IMG/VR virus record: IMGVR_UViG_3300046385_000083
Location: 1-41,690 of that record
DNA: 41,690 nt
DNA from: a virus
Strand: one strand, 5' to 3'
The translations under genes were made by a program, and so were the position numbers. Within the stretch, counting starts at the first letter, position 1; the number at the start of each line of letters is the position of its first letter. Below the pieces are notes generated by a model that was not told the origin of the DNA, did not search any database, and worked only from the letters and a program-made list of their open reading frames with translations. Positions 5,345 to 34,268 of this stretch are shown piece after piece.

Positions 5345-5887
5345 TTATACTGCATACTGGTACACTAATTGACTTCTTATTTCTTTTGTTACAACTAGTG
5401 TTTCATTTTGTTTTTCTGGAGGCATTACAAGTGCATGTCCTTCCAATAATTCTGGATCACATTCTAAATACTCTGCATATTCATTATAGTATATGCTTGG
5501 ATTTAGCGCATGCATTACACACAAGTAATCAGTTTTAATCATCAAAAAGTTTTTTGAACTAGTTGATAGATCTTGATAGTTGCCGTTTACAATTTTGTTG
5601 TAATCATCAGCCATGCTTTCAAAGTTGAAAATTACTATGTCAAATTCATGATCAACAATAGTTAATTCATAAAATGGACTCAACAAAATACTTTTTTTGT
5701 TTTCTTTGTACTCTTCAGACTCATTATGAAAAAGACAAATTAAGTTTGTCCCATTCTCAATCTGAAAATTTTCTAAAAACAAATAAGTTCCAACAGGCTT
5801 TAAAGCTTTAGGCAGATTTAAAAATGGATACAAAAAAATTAAACTTTTTTGTTCATACTCAAGTGCTCCTTTAATTGTTTTTACCAT
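5345..5887 (-). CDS. Hypothetical protein, 180 aa
   Basis: I do not recognise this protein. It has no signal peptide or clear membrane helix; hydrophobic and aromatic clusters suggest a compact soluble fold with a mid-protein acidic section (DHEFDIVIFNFESMADDYN). It is the last gene of the minus-strand block, ending 7 bp from the convergent terminator. Its ATG overlaps the end of the MazG-like gene, so the two are probably translationally coupled. Confidence 0.8.
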   Translation of the reverse strand: MVKTIKGALEYEQKSLIFLYPFLNLPKALKPVGTYLFLENFQIENGTNLICLFHNESEEYKENKKSILLSPFYELTIVDHEFDIVIFNFESMADDYNKIVNGNYQDLSTSSKNFLMIKTDYLCVMHALNPSIYYNEYAEYLECDPELLEGHALVMPPEKQNETLVVTKEIRSQLVYQYAV

Positions 5888-6267
5888 GACTTTAATACAC
5901 TTTTAAGTTCAACTTTTTTAAAGCCTTCAGGTTTCAAAATTTTACCATCTGCTCTCAAGATTGGTTCACCATCTGGGCCTAATTTTGCCATGTTGTTTGC
6001 ATGCACTAAATCAAATGCAGTTTCAATATGATTCTGTAAACCATGTTTACATATCGTGCCAAATATAATGTACAATTGATCAGCTAGTGCATCTAACACT
6101 TCAATCATGTCATAATTAGCAGCTGCTTCTAAATATTCATCCAATTCTTCAACACCTAATGCATGACGTAACACAGTTTCTTTGTTACTTAATAATCTTG
6201 GGTCAGTGCCTTGTTCTTGTTTGAAAGTTCTGTGGAAGTCTTCCACCATTGTAATCTGTTTAATCAT
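5881..6267 (-). CDS. MazG-like / HisE-like NTP pyrophosphohydrolase
   Basis: All-alpha NTP pyrophosphohydrolase (MazG/HisE-type superfamily), 128 aa. Metal-binding motifs are visible: EExxE at E40, E41, E44 (GVEELDEYLEA) and a second acidic helix at residues 56-63 (EVLDALAD). The C-terminal part (AFDLVHANNMAKLGPDGEPI...GKILKPEGFKKVEL) is typical of the phage group often labelled phosphoribosyl-ATP pyrophosphohydrolase-like. These enzymes hydrolyse NTPs to NMP and PPi, with Mg ions held by the acidic residues; in phages they may clean or tune nucleotide pools, but the substrate is unknown. I chose the ATG at 6267 because the longer frame to 6390 would overlap the upstream gene by 104 bp and adds residues with no family match. 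Confidence 0.85.
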   Translation of the reverse strand: MIKQITMVEDFHRTFKQEQGTDPRLLSNKETVLRHALGVEELDEYLEAAANYDMIEVLDALADQLYIIFGTICKHGLQNHIETAFDLVHANNMAKLGPDGEPILRADGKILKPEGFKKVELKSVLKSW

Positions 6268-6286
6268 TGTATGTTTGTTTATGTGT

Positions 6287-6499
6287 TTATATTCTAAAGC
6301 AACTAGGTGCTTTTGGATTTCCATGCTCATCAGTTGTGTAAAGTTGTGGCCATGTACCTTCTTGTACATATTCAACTCCTGGAAAAGCATAGATAAAAAT
6401 TTGCTTTATGGTTACTTTGTTTCTACCTGATTGCTTTGTGTAAGCAGTTATTGTAGTTTTAACAAAGTATTCAGAAGGATCCAATTTAACATTGGGCAT
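6287..6499 (-). CDS. Hypothetical protein, 70 aa
   Basis: Unrecognised small soluble protein with a beta-rich look (YFVKTTITAYTKQ...VTIKQIFIYAF). The frame extends to a TTG at 6565, but the ATG at 6499 is preferred: it is preceded 20 bp upstream by the promoter-like motif at 6519-6543, and the longer form would overlap the upstream gene by 28 bp. Confidence 0.65.
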   Translation of the reverse strand: MPNVKLDPSEYFVKTTITAYTKQSGRNKVTIKQIFIYAFPGVEYVQEGTWPQLYTTDEHGNPKAPSCFRI

Positions 6500-8739: not shown

Positions 8740-9618
8740 TTAAAAAATATACCGGATTGTGTTCCAAGGTATAATTGAATTATGCAATTGGGTGAACTCT
8801 TCAATCCATTTTGCTTTTAACTGGTGCTTGTATCTTACATTTGCACCTCCATACTGGGATATTTTCTTTTCCTGAATCTCAGGGGTCCATAATAATTTTT
8901 CACCAGGTAAATCATAAATGAGATTATGTGCATGCTTTTTTTCATTATGTGTCAAGAATATTACTTCAGCTTTAACTTTGTCATTGTTCCAATTATACGC
9001 GTAAGCATAATTTCTAATTGTTTTAAAAAGTTTTTCATATAACAGTAACCAGTCTTTGCATACAATTACAGGACTAAAATTTAAGTGAACTTCATAACCT
9101 GCATCAAGAAACTGATCAACAGCCGAAAGCCTTTTTTCAATAGAAGAAGTGTTTGGTTCTAGTATTTCTTGTAATGATTGTGGCATTAATGAAAATCTGA
9201 TTCTTATTTTACCTTCAGGGTTGTAATCAAGTAACTTATCATTTACATATTTGGTAGCAAAAGAACCCATTGCTGTAGGATGATTCTTAAAGAAGTCAAA
9301 TATGTATCTCCAGTCATGGTAATTAGCATGTAAAGCAAAGTCTTCATTGCAACTAATGTCATACGTTGTATACTTTGGGTGTGTTTGATTAGGTTTTTCT
9401 ACATCAGTAAATGCACAATGATTATTTACAGCTGTAAGTATTTCATTGGCATTAGTTGCAATATCTAAACCTTTATCTTTGTGTCTTTTCATATAGCAAT
9501 TATGTGTAAGAATACCATTTGCAAAATAATTTTCATTCTTTTGTACAGAAAAGTTGACAACCTTTGTTTTTTTTGCTATTTTTGTAATAGCTTTAATTTT
9601 CTTAAATTCTAACTCCAT
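8740..9618 (-). CDS. C-terminal half of a split-intein-fractured radical-SAM enzyme (spore photoproduct lyase family)
   Basis: 292 aa. Residues 1-40 are a C-intein: the block F-like segment VVNFSVQKNENYFANGILTHN ends in His-Asn followed by Cys41, the +1 nucleophile. Residues 41-292 are the C-extein and read as the spore photoproduct lyase family: CYMKRHKDKG, IRFSLMPQ...LEPNTSSIEKR, LDAGYEVHLNFSPVI, AEVIFLTHNE and ISQYGGANVRY. Cys41 is also the third cysteine of the CxxxCxxC motif that binds the 4Fe-4S cluster; the first two are in the other half (10167-10580). Trans-splicing should join 39 N-extein residues to 252 C-extein residues. SPL repairs the thymine spore photoproduct using S-adenosylmethionine; the activity of phage members is unproven. 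The start ATG shares the CATG palindrome with the divergent HNH gene. Confidence 0.85.
   Translation of the reverse strand: MELEFKKIKAITKIAKKTKVVNFSVQKNENYFANGILTHNCYMKRHKDKGLDIATNANEILTAVNNHCAFTDVEKPNQTHPKYTTYDISCNEDFALHANYHDWRYIFDFFKNHPTAMGSFATKYVNDKLLDYNPEGKIRIRFSLMPQSLQEILEPNTSSIEKRLSAVDQFLDAGYEVHLNFSPVIVCKDWLLLYEKLFKTIRNYAYAYNWNNDKVKAEVIFLTHNEKKHAHNLIYDLPGEKLLWTPEIQEKKISQYGGANVRYKHQLKAKWIEEFTQLHNSIIPWNTIRYIF
9554..9584 (+). promoter_or_regulatory. Host-type (Bacteroidota) promoter for the HNH gene
   Basis: TTG at 9554-9556, 20-bp spacer, TATTTTTG (TAnnTTTG) at 9577-9584, about 32 bp before the HNH start. This matches the known -33/-7 pattern of Bacteroidota primary-sigma promoters. It lies antisense within the C-intein coding sequence. 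Confidence 0.6.
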
Positions 9619-10438
9619 GAGCTGTTTTTATTGTGGTAAAATTACAAAAAAGGGTACATCCTATTGTAATGATGCATGTGAAATAAATTATACTGACTTG
9701 TTTAATCAAGAGTCTAAACCTGTTTTTAGAACTTTTCAAGAAGCTGGTAAATTCTACAAAAGAGACTTTAGAACAATGAAAAGATTTGAAGGTGCTTTAT
9801 TTACTATTGATAAAACATTACCTTCTGCTAATACTAAATGGACAGTATGTGTTTCTTGTGGCGAACAATCTCCTAAATCTAAAGCTAGACGCGGTTATTG
9901 TGTTGATTGTACTGCCCAAGGTTTAGGTAAAAAAAACCAAGGCCTGATTATATCAAAAAGATACAAAGGCCCTGGTAATCCTAATTATATAGATGGTAAT
10001 TCAAAAGGTGTTGAATATCAATTAAATGATTGGTACAAGCTTAAAAAAGAATTAAACTTTACACAATGCGCTTTAACTGGTAGTACAACAAATATTGATT
10101 ATCATCATATCATTCCAAGATGGTTTTGTAAACTTGCAAACATAGATGTTTTTGATCCAAATAATATTATTGGATTAAACCATTCATATCACAAAGTAAT
10201 TCATCATCTTCAGTTAGATATTGTGCTTCTACCCATCCTCTATTCTTTGTATAAAAAGGATGCTCTCCAGTTACGTTTACAATTTGTGAATTTACTTCAA
10301 TTACATAAAGTTCATCAGTATCCCGTTGACCAATTGCAGTCACTAAGTCTGTTTCAACTTGCCCGGTATCCTGGGAAAAAGAAATTACTTGATCTCCTTC
10401 CTGAATTTCTCCAGCCGTTTTTACTCCATAAGGAGTAG
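9617..10438 (+). CDS. HNH homing endonuclease within the split intein locus
   Basis: 273 aa when started at the ATG at 9617. Two zinc-binding knots come first (C3-x2-C6 with C17/C21; C78-x2-C81 with C95/C98), then a GPGNPNYIDG segment, then the HNH nuclease: CALTG near 151, H163-H164 (DYHHIIPRW), N183 and H189/H192/H196 (NNIIGLNHSYHKVIHH). It sits between the N- and C-intein genes in reverse orientation, the fractured-gene arrangement in which the endonuclease moves the intein locus by cutting intein-less alleles. From residue 184 on, the frame runs antisense through the N-intein coding sequence for 272 bp; the HNH tail to about residue 200 seems functional, the last ~70 residues may only reflect the lack of a stop. 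A plus-strand host-type promoter precedes it. Confidence 0.85.
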   Translation: MSCFYCGKITKKGTSYCNDACEINYTDLFNQESKPVFRTFQEAGKFYKRDFRTMKRFEGALFTIDKTLPSANTKWTVCVSCGEQSPKSKARRGYCVDCTAQGLGKKNQGLIISKRYKGPGNPNYIDGNSKGVEYQLNDWYKLKKELNFTQCALTGSTTNIDYHHIIPRWFCKLANIDVFDPNNIIGLNHSYHKVIHHLQLDIVLLPILYSLYKKDALQLRLQFVNLLQLHKVHQYPVDQLQSLSLFQLARYPGKKKLLDLLPEFLQPFLLHKE

Positions 10439-10580
10439 TAATTAAAGTTTCAGGAGTTACGCAGTATGTACAATTGTACAAGCAGCCGTGACCAAAAGAG
10501 GGCGCAATAAAATCTGTACTGCGCCCGGATGGTCTTATTGTAAATGTTTTTCTTTTTGATAAAGTAATAAGACTACTCAT
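10167..10580 (-). CDS. N-terminal half of the fractured radical-SAM enzyme with N-intein
   Basis: 137 aa from the ATG at 10580 (a TTG at 10586 is also in frame). Residues 1-39 are the N-extein, ending GHGCLYNCTY: C33 and C37 are the first two cluster-binding cysteines of CxxxCxxC. Residue Cys40 begins the N-intein (98 aa): block A CVTPETLITTPYG, block B with the TxxH motif VTGEHPFYT, then WVEAQYLTEDDELL. No endonuclease domain is fused. The intein therefore splits the enzyme inside its iron-sulphur motif, and the enzyme can work only after splicing to the product of 8740-9618. The last ~15 codons are antisense to the HNH active-site region. Confidence 0.85.
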   Translation of the reverse strand: MSSLITLSKRKTFTIRPSGRSTDFIAPSFGHGCLYNCTYCVTPETLITTPYGVKTAGEIQEGDQVISFSQDTGQVETDLVTAIGQRDTDELYVIEVNSQIVNVTGEHPFYTKNRGWVEAQYLTEDDELLCDMNGLIQ

Positions 10581-10857
10581 TGTCAATCAAGTATTGTGCA
10601 ACTCTGTGCTTTAATTCAGATTTGTCAAACAAGTCAAAGAAATCTTCTATGCTAAAATCAAATTGATTTAAGCAAAATTGCGGTGTAAACTGAACAGATT
10701 TTTCTAGTTGTTGAATTAATTCTTTGTCTGGAAGATTGTTGAATATATCATCAATAGTAGATTTATATATTTCAAATGTTAATTCTACTTCTTGATGATT
10801 GTATGGACTTATTTGAACATCTGAAGCAGTAACTGTAAAACTGTAAGTGTTACTCAT
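10573..10857 (-). CDS. Hypothetical protein, 94 aa
   Basis: Unrecognised acidic protein: a beta-rich start (YSFTVTASDVQISPYNHQEVELTFEIY) and helical acidic end with repeated Phe-Asp pairs (FDFSIEDFFDLFDKS). Ends with TAG overlapping the start of the radical-SAM N-half, so the two are likely co-translated. Confidence 0.7.
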   Translation of the reverse strand: MSNTYSFTVTASDVQISPYNHQEVELTFEIYKSTIDDIFNNLPDKELIQQLEKSVQFTPQFCLNQFDFSIEDFFDLFDKSELKHRVAQYLIDNE

Positions 10858-21725: not shown

Positions 21726-22462
21726 TAATTCAGCTTGATGGTTTTACCTTTACACACTCTGTTTTTTTTAATAGCGGCATGCACATTTTGAAAAGATGTA
21801 TTTAAATCTGCAGCTAATTTAGATATTGAGGTGTAAGTTTTAATAGAACCGTCTTTGTCTATACAACTAATTGAATATTCAGTATAAGGTTTTCTGTTTA
21901 TTTTAGCTATAGGTTTTATTTTATCAACATATTTTCTAGTCCATTGAAAACCATTTGCTGATTTTGTTTTTCCTTTGCTTGCATTTTGTATTGAAACAAC
22001 ACTACCTTTAATATAATCAGCCGCTTCTTTGTGTGTATCAAATGATCTGATATAATTACCTAACAAATCATACTGATATATTTTTACAGAAGCAGGGTTA
22101 TCTTTTCCCATATATTTGCCTGTCATAAGCATACTTATTTTTTCTTTAGTTGATTCACTTTTTTTAGCGGAAACAGGATCTCTATCAATGTTAATATCAG
22201 GATTAAGTAAATCAATGAAAAACTTTTCTCTTTCAATTTGATTTTTACAAAGCTCTAATATTTTAATTGAGTATTGCTCTTCTGTATATTTTAAAAATAC
22301 TCTTTGCATAAAATCATTATGATGCATGTTTCTTTTTAAATCATTCAGATGTCTTTTTGATCTATTGTATAAATTACAACTGCTTCCTATATAAAAGTGA
22401 GGACCAATAGTTATTTGATAAACTCCGCTTTTGTTTCTGTCTTTATACTGAAATTTTTTCAT
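21725..22462 (-). CDS. GIY-YIG homing endonuclease with NUMOD-type DNA-binding domains
   Basis: 245 aa from the ATG at 22462. GIY-YIG nuclease at ~10-95: GVYQI (13-17), YIGSS (24-28), R34, acidic helix around E77-E79 and LLNPDIN. Then a NUMOD3-like piece (STKEKISMLMTGKYMGKDNP), a NUMOD1-like piece (VKIYQYDLLGNYIRSFDTHKEAA...FQWTRK) and a C-terminal helix-turn-helix (SISKLAADLNTSFQNVHAAI). It has its own host-type promoter at 22477-22507. Its last seven residues, GKTIKLN, repeat the C-terminus of the VWA protein, and its last 22 bp are a synonymous variant of the VWA 3' end. This indicates insertion at the VWA stop codon. Confidence 0.88.
   Translation of the reverse strand: MKKFQYKDRNKSGVYQITIGPHFYIGSSCNLYNRSKRHLNDLKRNMHHNDFMQRVFLKYTEEQYSIKILELCKNQIEREKFFIDLLNPDINIDRDPVSAKKSESTKEKISMLMTGKYMGKDNPASVKIYQYDLLGNYIRSFDTHKEAADYIKGSVVSIQNASKGKTKSANGFQWTRKYVDKIKPIAKINRKPYTEYSISCIDKDGSIKTYTSISKLAADLNTSFQNVHAAIKKNRVCKGKTIKLN
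21727..21748 (-). repeat. Duplicated VWA 3' end, copy A (copy B at 22516-22537)
   Basis: 22 bp shared with 22516-22537 at 19 of 22 positions. The three differences are all third-codon changes within GGT-AAR-ACY-ATY-AAG-CTG-AAT, so both copies encode GKTIKLN. The copies flank the GIY-YIG gene; this one looks like the original gene end (followed by TAATGG of the next gene). Confidence 0.8.
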
Positions 22463-22476
22463 GTTTGCTTTTTTTA

Positions 22477-22507
22477 CAAAGATAAGAATAATTCTTTGAT
22501 AAAACAA
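22477..22507 (-). promoter_or_regulatory. Host-type (Bacteroidota) promoter for the GIY-YIG gene
   Basis: Minus strand: TTG (22507-22505), 20-bp spacer, TATCTTTG (22484-22477), then a 14-bp leader to the ATG. Same geometry as the promoter of the HNH homing gene. It fits in the 51-bp gap after the VWA gene. Confidence 0.65.
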
Positions 22508-22513
22508 TGAAAT

Positions 22514-23728
22514 TCAATTCAGCTTAATAGTCTTACCTGGTAAGTGATCTGTGTTGCTGCATTTTGTAGATAATACCCACAATATATTCTTTATTGGTGC
22601 TTCTGGCGCGGGTGCTTCTCCGTCTGTAAGATAGATGAGCGTGGTGTATTTCTTCCTATAGGTCAAAAAGTAATCAACCACCGGGTTAAAATCAGTTCCA
22701 CCTCGTTGTTTAATTACAAGATCCATAGATGGTCTGTACTTTACTGGCTCTTGCATTTGTGTATCAGCAAAAGTAATTGTGAAATCATGACCGCATTTGT
22801 ACATGTGGTGTATTTCATTCATGAACTCTTTGATTTCCGCATCAGATACAGAAGCTGAACTGTCAATAGCAATTAAGATATGTGAATGTTCCTGTACGCG
22901 TATACCAAAGTCTAATTCAAATCTTTTACTTTGCTTACGTTTTGTTTTGCGCATTGTTGTTTTGGCTGAATTACCAATGTATCTACGCAAGTATGCGCGC
23001 CAGTTAAACTTTGGTGGCTCAATGTTTTTAAGTTTCTCAAGCTTAATTAAAACTTCATTTGGTATGGTGCCTCGTTGTTTTTTAACTTGCTCAACAACTT
23101 CACTCAACATTACTTCTAACTGTTTGTCAATTAGTTTCTTTTGAGTTTCAGATAAGTCTTCAAAGTCATCCCAGTCATGTTCCGGCATGTTCATTTTACC
23201 TCCACCTGGTTGATCAACTTGACCATCACCGTTGGCAATTGCATTCATTACAGCTTGCATCATGTCGGAACCACCTCCACCATTGTTCTGTTGAGAATCT
23301 TTAATCAGTTTCTCATAGTATATGTTTGTACCTTCATTTGGTAACAAACCTGAGTCAACAAATTTATCAAGTGTTGCACCACCTTTAGGAAGCCATTCAT
23401 TTGGAATCTTTTGATTGATCTCAATATCTTCTGCAAGATTAGCAAGCTCATGATTTTTGAGATGCTTGTATTCTGTTATATGAAAGAAAGCTATATGCAT
23501 CAACTCGTGTTGCAACAAGCCTTTCTTTTCATTTGCTGTCAGTGTTGACCAAAACTCTGGATTAATGTATAATTTGTAATTAATCCCATTTAAGCCAACA
23601 CCGGCTGTTTTTACTACATTAGACCACTCTTTGTTCAGATTCAATAATAGAAGCCCGTAGAAAGGCTGATCTAACATTAAATCTTTACATATCTTGGTCA
23701 GATCTTGTTGTAATCCTTTTGTGTTCAT
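22514..23728 (-). CDS. VWA-domain metallopeptidase-like partner of the AAA+ ATPase (DUF2201 type)
   Basis: 404 aa. N-terminal putative metallopeptidase domain with HELMH at 74-78 (LLQHELMHIAFFH) and an acidic AEDIEINQ about 20 residues on. A Gly/Asn/Asp-rich linker spans ~147-190. The C-terminal VWA-like domain has the MIDAS DSSAS at 289-293 (HILIAIDSSASVSD) and IYLTDGEAPAP. This is the layout of DUF2201 proteins that pair with MoxR ATPases. C-terminus LPGKTIKLN is natural for the family, but its codons appear recoded relative to the copy at 21727-21748. It starts 44 bp inside the upstream gene. Confidence 0.88.
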   Translation of the reverse strand: MNTKGLQQDLTKICKDLMLDQPFYGLLLLNLNKEWSNVVKTAGVGLNGINYKLYINPEFWSTLTANEKKGLLQHELMHIAFFHITEYKHLKNHELANLAEDIEINQKIPNEWLPKGGATLDKFVDSGLLPNEGTNIYYEKLIKDSQQNNGGGGSDMMQAVMNAIANGDGQVDQPGGGKMNMPEHDWDDFEDLSETQKKLIDKQLEVMLSEVVEQVKKQRGTIPNEVLIKLEKLKNIEPPKFNWRAYLRRYIGNSAKTTMRKTKRKQSKRFELDFGIRVQEHSHILIAIDSSASVSDAEIKEFMNEIHHMYKCGHDFTITFADTQMQEPVKYRPSMDLVIKQRGGTDFNPVVDYFLTYRKKYTTLIYLTDGEAPAPEAPIKNILWVLSTKCSNTDHLPGKTIKLN

Positions 23729-33872: not shown

Positions 33873-34268
33873 TTAAATGAGGAAGCCTAACTCCCTGGCT
33901 TCTTTCGGGTGTGAGTGAACCCACTGATGACATGCCCGGCATGATGCCTTCCATGTTGCTGTGTTTAGGTAATTAGTACCTGTTCTATATGCAGTATGAT
34001 GTACTTCAGTTGCTATACTTGTACATGCAGTTGTGTTTATTTCACACCGTTCATGTTTAGTCAAATACTTTTTATTTAGTATTGCATATACCGCATCCTC
34101 AGTTTTCTTTTTGTCACTGCGTTTCTTTATTTGATGCGCACTGGGTTTAAGTTTAACTGTTGATGTTGTAGCACAATACTTACATAGCTTGTATCTTATT
34201 CCATCTACTGTTTGATTCTTAAAGATGGGTGTATATTTCTTACACCCATCACATTGTTTAAGTTTCAT
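33873..34268 (-). CDS. HNH endonuclease with N-terminal zinc ribbon
   Basis: 131 aa. CxxC pairs at C6/C9 and C29/C32 form a zinc ribbon. The HNH core is C75, C82, HH at 90-91 (EVHHTAYRTG), N102 region, C110-x2-C113 and H114/H118 (CRACHQWVHSH). This is the compact phage type with structural zinc, seen as free-standing enzymes or packaging-related endonucleases; without flanking exon disruption its homing status is unclear. Its orientation matches its neighbours, unlike the 9617 enzyme. Confidence 0.8.
   Translation of the reverse strand: MKLKQCDGCKKYTPIFKNQTVDGIRYKLCKYCATTSTVKLKPSAHQIKKRSDKKKTEDAVYAILNKKYLTKHERCEINTTACTSIATEVHHTAYRTGTNYLNTATWKASCRACHQWVHSHPKEARELGFLI

Follow-up and report, generated by a model that had tools for sequence, protein, structure and literature searches.

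Fractured genes, reportedly described by Dassa et al. in 2009, are conserved phage genes which a split intein breaks in two; an endonuclease open reading frame (ORF) lies between the halves. Here we describe, from uncultured phages, a DNA-repair-type radical-SAM gene of the spore photoproduct lyase (SPL) family which is broken by a split intein and accompanied by an antisense HNH endonuclease gene, together forming a mobile element of 965 bp (the SPL element). It lies in IMG/VR record IMGVR_UViG_3300046385_000083 (G000; 41,690 b), which was analysed as a whole, is called the window below and is probably a phage fragment. With the fractured genes gp41-1 and NrdJ-1 the locus shares the common layout of a split intein in a phage gene and an endonuclease ORF between the halves, and the comparison drawn in the original prediction, a first reading of this DNA, holds to that extent. 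The gp41-1 and NrdJ-1 loci used as controls were recovered from contigs in this work and are not the originally published loci. Where both halves are present and the gap holds an ORF of 80 aa or more, the main gap ORF is on the same strand, comprises 174-254 aa and begins some 50 bp past the N-half match; the gap varies between 234 and 1600 bp. In contrast, the ORF of the SPL element is antisense, shares about 266 nt with the N-intein and belongs to an element of fixed length. The host gene and the endonuclease family also differ. The SPL element has no separate, same-strand, non-overlapping endonuclease ORF, which is a feature of the control loci and not necessarily of the definition of a fractured gene. 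The gp41-1 loci L279, L281, L282, L283, L322 and L324 have a gap of just 234 bp without an ORF of at least 80 aa, possibly through loss of the endonuclease.

Other described systems share single traits with the SPL element. MoaA is a radical-SAM enzyme, and the intein of Pyrococcus abyssi MoaA is located at the same Cys of the CxxxCxxC motif. It likewise has a Cys at -3 and a Cys1 nucleophile, and a bond between the two stops splicing under oxidising conditions (PMC3922620, PMC10663303). Unlike the MoaA intein, the SPL intein is split and paired with an antisense HNH gene. Residues 33-120 of the N-half align unbroken to profile positions 67-156 of the Rv2578c-family radical-SAM proteins (NCBIfam NF038136), which suggests that these proteins have an intein at or adjoining the same Cys; they are single-chain and belong to a different radical-SAM family, and the match, at 20-22 bits, lies far below the cut-off of 700. 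Antisense homing endonuclease genes are known from group I introns at nuclear rDNA L2066, where the endonuclease gene likewise lies opposite the host gene and the splicing element (PMC9548176). Those are RNA introns in eukaryotic rDNA, whereas the SPL element would splice as protein, and its two proteins are encoded by opposite strands of one stretch of DNA. At the title and abstract level of the literature searched, neither an intein with an antisense endonuclease nor SPL in phages was reported.

The SPL element is very probably a homing fractured-gene element which restores its host enzyme by trans-splicing and in which nuclease and N-intein are double-coded. The original prediction had seen a radical-SAM gene split by an intein within its Fe-S motif, with a reverse-oriented HNH gene in the gap. 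Intein and TIGR03886 profile matches bear out the broken gene, and its coordinates were right. As for the HNH gene, the opposite orientation stood; the gene extends beyond the 548-bp gap that separates the N-half stop from the C-half start, since it overlaps the N-intein and shares a CATG with the C-half. The parts of the locus are listed by window coordinates, strand and basis.

8743..9498, minus strand: C-extein of the SPL-family enzyme, 252 aa, from C+1 (CYMKRH), with the stop codon at 8742-8740 (TIGR03886, alignment).
9499..9618, minus strand: C-intein, 40 aa, with its own ATG at the start, ending GILTHN (TIGR01443, Intein_splicing).
9554..9584, plus strand: promoter-like site for the HNH gene within the C-intein, TTGACA ... 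TATTTTTG, of the TAnnTTTG type (position conserved among elements).
9616..9619, both strands: CATG, in which the C-half start codon (minus) overlaps the HNH start codon (plus) (sequence).
9617..10438, plus strand: HNH endonuclease ORF, 273 aa, antisense to the host gene (phrog_8048 HNH, invariant H/N/H in 28 loci, alignment).
10103-10207, plus strand: HNH motif, residues 163-197 of the HNH ORF (invariant H/N/H residues).
10170..10435, both strands: double-coding stretch of N-intein codons 10-98 (minus) and HNH residues 184-273 (plus) (stop test, third-position diversity).
10170..10463, minus strand: N-intein, 98 aa, with C1 and block B T65xxH68, stop codon 10169-10167 (TIGR01445, PT-HINT, NrdJ-1, alignment).
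10464..10580, minus strand: N-extein of the SPL-family enzyme, 39 aa, ending CLYNCTY with Cys at -3 (TIGR03886 match on the N-half).
9499..10463, both strands: entire mobile element, 965 bp (constant length of copies; empty sites show a clean insertion).

The N-half reads MSSLITLSK...GHGCLYNCTY from the ATG at 10580, which overlaps the 3' end of the preceding ORF (10573-10857), and continues into the N-intein (CVTPETLITTPYG..., beginning CVTPETLITT). The C-half (9618-8740, minus strand) reads MELEFKKIKA...GILTHN and continues with CYMKRHKDKG. The host gene is split at the codon for the third Cys of CxxxCxxC, and this Cys is the C+1 residue, as had been predicted (C1 codon 10463-10461, C+1 codon 9498-9496). 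As 965 bp is not a multiple of three, there is no read-through of the host gene. Rfam and tRNA scans gave no matches; a group I intron or other splicing at the RNA level was set aside for lack of an Rfam match. A terminator-like hairpin of 10 pairs (6 G-C) at 10500-10526 (minus strand), in the N-extein coding sequence shortly upstream of the insertion, may be a chance occurrence.

Profile searches of both proteins gave intein matches above cut-off on each half. TIGR01445 (intein_Nterm) matched the N-half at E 8.6e-7 (29.9 bits, cut-off 24.5) and TIGR01443 (intein_Cterm) the C-half at 3.7e-5 (23.8 bits, cut-off 15.6), and the joined intein matched Pfam Intein_splicing at 7.5e-13 and the NrdJ-1 intein in PDB at 5e-11. 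C1, T65 and H68 are invariant across 20 aligned N-intein rows, all C-intein variants end in HN and C+1 is invariant in the C-extein alignment. With C1, TxxH, the terminal HN and C+1 all present, this is by its residues a class-1 split intein, for which splicing is predicted, and apparently a new split-intein family. The two halves of the window intein carry opposite charges (-14 and +5). Moreover, Cys at -3 is found in 29/29 element-bearing host genes and is at the same time a Fe-S ligand; it faces C1 because the insertion lies at the third Fe-S Cys. This is the layout of the MoaA redox trap, which makes redox-gated splicing as in the Pyrococcus enzyme a predicted possibility.

Assignment of the host protein to the SPL family, already made in the original prediction, is confirmed by TIGR03886, which matches the N-half (2e-10) and the C-half (1e-79) separately and the joined exteins at 3e-96 (322 bits, below the full-length cut-off of 437.6). 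The joined exteins, 291 aa, are the predicted spliced product with an intact CxxxCxxC. They resemble solved spore photoproduct lyases (3e-14). The match to PF20903, with CxxxCxxC present, has 94.5 bits (cut-off 27), and that to spore photoproduct lyase proper (TIGR04070) 88.8 bits of the equivalog 400. Y-C-Y is present, as is a Cys aligned with that of the Geobacillus-type enzyme; the N-terminal region of the cellular relatives is absent. In spore photoproduct lyase proper the corresponding residues are the H-donor Cys and the two Tyr flanking the third Cys. At codon positions 1/2/3 the N-extein has a diversity of 0.20/0.16/0.50 and the C-extein one of 0.21/0.16/0.46, and both exteins are judged to be under purifying selection. 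A second, intact SPL gene, which would have spoken against the original prediction, was found neither in the window record nor in 8 further records that carry the element (25-107 kb), possibly all fragments.

The HNH gene overlaps the N-intein antisense, the last approximately 90 HNH codons facing N-intein codons 10-98. The overlap contains the final catalytic His of the motif, His192, as well as His196/197, all invariant. Across the overlap the HNH frame had no stop in 19/19 loci tested, while the other two antisense frames had 4-7. When each N-intein was recoded synonymously with the codon usage of its phage, a mean of 3.5-5.6 stops was expected and the frame stayed open in at most 1% of trials. 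Third-position diversity points in the same direction. Over 28 distinct elements it is 0.44 in N-intein codons 1-9, which lie outside the HNH ORF, and 0.076 in codons 10-98, compared with 0.47 outside the double-coding stretch and 0.46-0.50 in the exteins. Varying third positions number 31/89 inside the overlap against 56/57 outside; for third positions inside against all outside the Mann-Whitney p of about 2e-20 is only a guide, since the sites share one tree. Inside the overlap second positions vary more than third positions (0.122 vs 0.076), as is to be expected because the wobble bases of HNH lie opposite second codon positions of the N-intein. On these statistics, N-intein and HNH appear to be double-coded. 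The original prediction had missed this antisense double coding, as well as the wide distribution in phages and the signs of homing described below.

The HNH profile phrog_8048 matches 20/21 members at E 5e-5 to 8e-5, and the H-H ... N ... H active-site motif is invariant in 28 distinct elements; the match to Pfam HNH_2 stays below the cut-off (13.4 bits, cut-off 21). A search of PDB with the HNH profile gave no match, 125 pattern matches in cellular genomes gave no confirmed relative, and none was found in sequenced phages. No frame-shifted copy occurs among the complete loci. In L018 and L019 the HNH ATG at the CATG is lost and an in-frame ATG lies three codons upstream instead. We infer that the HNH protein cuts intein-less SPL alleles. 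It is probably transcribed from its own promoter within the C-intein, where TT(G/A)AC-N17-19-TAnnTTTG stands at the same position in 26/28 distinct elements; chance accounts for such a site in 4-6% per locus under synonymous recoding.

Viral contigs of IMG/VR were searched with the C-half and with the HNH and N-intein alignments. The element was found in 39 other viral contigs and, wherever the host gene was readable, always in an SPL-family gene at the same codon. Because the same element recurs in these contigs, it is neither a chance feature nor an assembly artefact of a single record. Its length is exactly 965 bp in 34/35 measured copies and 968 bp in one. SPL-family genes as such occur in at least 593 viral contigs (profile of C-exteins alone). 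Of the 80 loci kept, 72 have an uninterrupted gene, the element is present in 4, and 4 are truncated. Intein-less alleles, whose comparison the original prediction had proposed, are thus common. The best 80 cellular SPL relatives are all uninterrupted at the third Cys. The viral SPL is a short version which lacks some 55-85 N-terminal residues of the cellular relatives (L114-L193). A distant N-intein match, L113, was set aside, as it has the appearance of a conventional intein in a single ORF; its large insert is, by eye, probably of the LAGLIDADG type.

The pattern of spread is, from the sequences compared, typical of homing. A tree of 110 SPL proteins requires at least 19 presence/absence changes of the element, of which starred branches force at least 13, compared with 25.5 for shuffled labels. 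The elements of L024 and L052 are 94% identical in DNA, while their SPL proteins are only 67% and their flanking DNA about 70% identical. L010, with the element, and L165, without it, share about 95% identity to either side of a clean insertion; identity dips in the first 30-90 bp upstream of it, which looks like co-conversion. Among allele pairs with C-exteins 90-99.9% identical, mean N-extein identity is 0.951 for two intact alleles (n=37, none below 0.85), 0.815 for pairs with one element (n=9) and 0.838 for pairs with two (n=6). From C1 onward the window and L003 agree to about 99% across roughly 3.5 kb; upstream of C1 the N-extein differs, followed by unrelated sequence. This exchange pattern fits double-strand breaks at the insertion site. 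In L012 (2628-2741) a second, truncated N-extein ends exactly at the insertion point (NCSY, stop). An unrelated ORF of 137 aa and the complete N-half come next; the truncated copy may have been left behind by repair where the DNA was cut. Phage nuclease genes are reported to lie at boundaries of genetic exchange (PMC10448857).

In the homing cycle that we propose, the N-half would be translated together with the upstream operon and the C-half from its own ATG. The oppositely charged halves would associate and trans-splice to the 291-residue enzyme with its CxxxCxxC intact. In mixed infection HNH, expressed from its promoter in the C-intein, would cut SPL alleles that lack the intein, at the same codon or close to it, and repair would copy the 965-bp element into the cut allele. 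A further-reaching proposal is that the overlap acts as a switch and that splicing depends on redox or iron; a single double-coded unit of 965 bp would then link mobility to the activation of a host enzyme that is sensitive to oxygen. Antisense HNH transcription through the N-intein would make production of endonuclease and of N-half exclude each other in time, and Cys-3/Cys1, perhaps with cluster binding to the N-half precursor (C1 completing CxxxCxxC), would tie splicing to redox or iron. We hold this extension only tentatively and think it rather unlikely.

Several observations weigh against homing with double coding as described. The HNH assignment combines a modest profile score (8e-5) with the invariant motif, and the AlphaFold model of HNH (21 aligned rows) is poor (mean pLDDT 58, pTM 0.30). 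The low third-position diversity could in principle reflect another DNA-level constraint. The SPL tree came from a quick search and its loci are not independent, and L003 is possibly a chimeric assembly. The promoter-like site is absent from L028 and L040, and it is suggestive only, because TAnnTTTG is not enriched window-wide (49 sites vs 67 expected).

One alternative is a shorter HNH protein ending near residue 200, with an antisense frame open by accident and third positions constrained by something else, for example RNA structure or a DNA-binding site. The motif does end at residue 197, and AlphaFold confidence falls in the tail. Nevertheless, we regard this as improbable: the stop test separates the HNH frame from the recoded sequences and from the other two antisense frames, residues 200-256 are free of in-frame stops in every locus, and variability falls near the end of the HNH ORF, with position 2 above position 3 as frame pairing predicts. 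Even a short HNH would overlap the N-intein with H192 and the last 16 motif-bearing codons. A decaying intein, with the SPL gene broken, splicing and homing dead and the halves mere relics, would agree with an insertion that makes the host gene unreadable through it. It is harder to reconcile with intein catalytic residues, HNH motif and exteins conserved over 28 distinct elements, with the fixed length and with the lack of frame-shifted HNH genes among complete loci, and we consider it more improbable still. Least credible of all is that splicing is not needed since half-enzymes, or an SPL encoded elsewhere, supply the activity. The unspliced N-half has CxxxCxx-C1, in which C1 replaces the third Cys, and the records are fragments which could have lost sight of a second SPL copy. 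Yet HN and C+1, which only splicing requires, are conserved, and the 9 records searched yielded no such copy.

Concerning the host of the phage, the original prediction had named Bacteroidota. This is plausible as a best guess, since the best cellular SPL relatives are mostly Cytophagales or other Bacteroidota and HNH has the promoter-like site of the TT(G/A)AC...TAnnTTTG kind. TAnnTTTG enrichment as proof of such a host is ruled out by the count given above. The DNA polymerase of the window phage has its best match in Cellulophaga phage phi14:2, at only 31%. Sequenced phages gave a single distant SPL match (26%), and so there is no isolate close to the window phage.

Further features were noted in the window and in one other contig. 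A GIY-YIG/NUMOD1 homing endonuclease gene (21728-22507, minus strand) directly follows a VWA-like gene; a 23-nt near-copy of the 3' end of the latter closes the GIY-YIG ORF (repeats 21727-21749 and 22516-22538). In its region TTG-N20-TATCTTTG stands at 22507-22477 (minus strand), with the same spacing as the promoter-like site of HNH. In L022 (226-520) an SPL N-terminus fragment is followed, in another frame, by GIY-YIG-like endonuclease sequence (by eye). A 131-aa ORF (33876-34268, minus strand) with VHH...CRACH...H is HNH-like by eye, but Pfam gave no match to it at E 0.01. At 5884-6390 (minus strand) lies a gene for a PRA-PH/MazG-like nucleotide pyrophosphohydrolase (PF01503, E 1e-12).

SPL-family radical-SAM genes are thus common in phages. 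Twenty-eight distinct natural versions of the fixed-length element and matched empty sites are available for comparison, and the apparently new split-intein family is potentially useful for protein engineering. If the proposed reading is true, the SPL element would be an intein-type homing element whose endonuclease is antisense to the intein and partly shares its DNA. The endonuclease would be hard to delete without harming the intein, because the C-terminal part of HNH lies antisense to most of the N-intein. This would suggest how homing endonuclease genes escape deletion after fixation of their site, namely by sharing codons with a splicing domain that the host gene needs.
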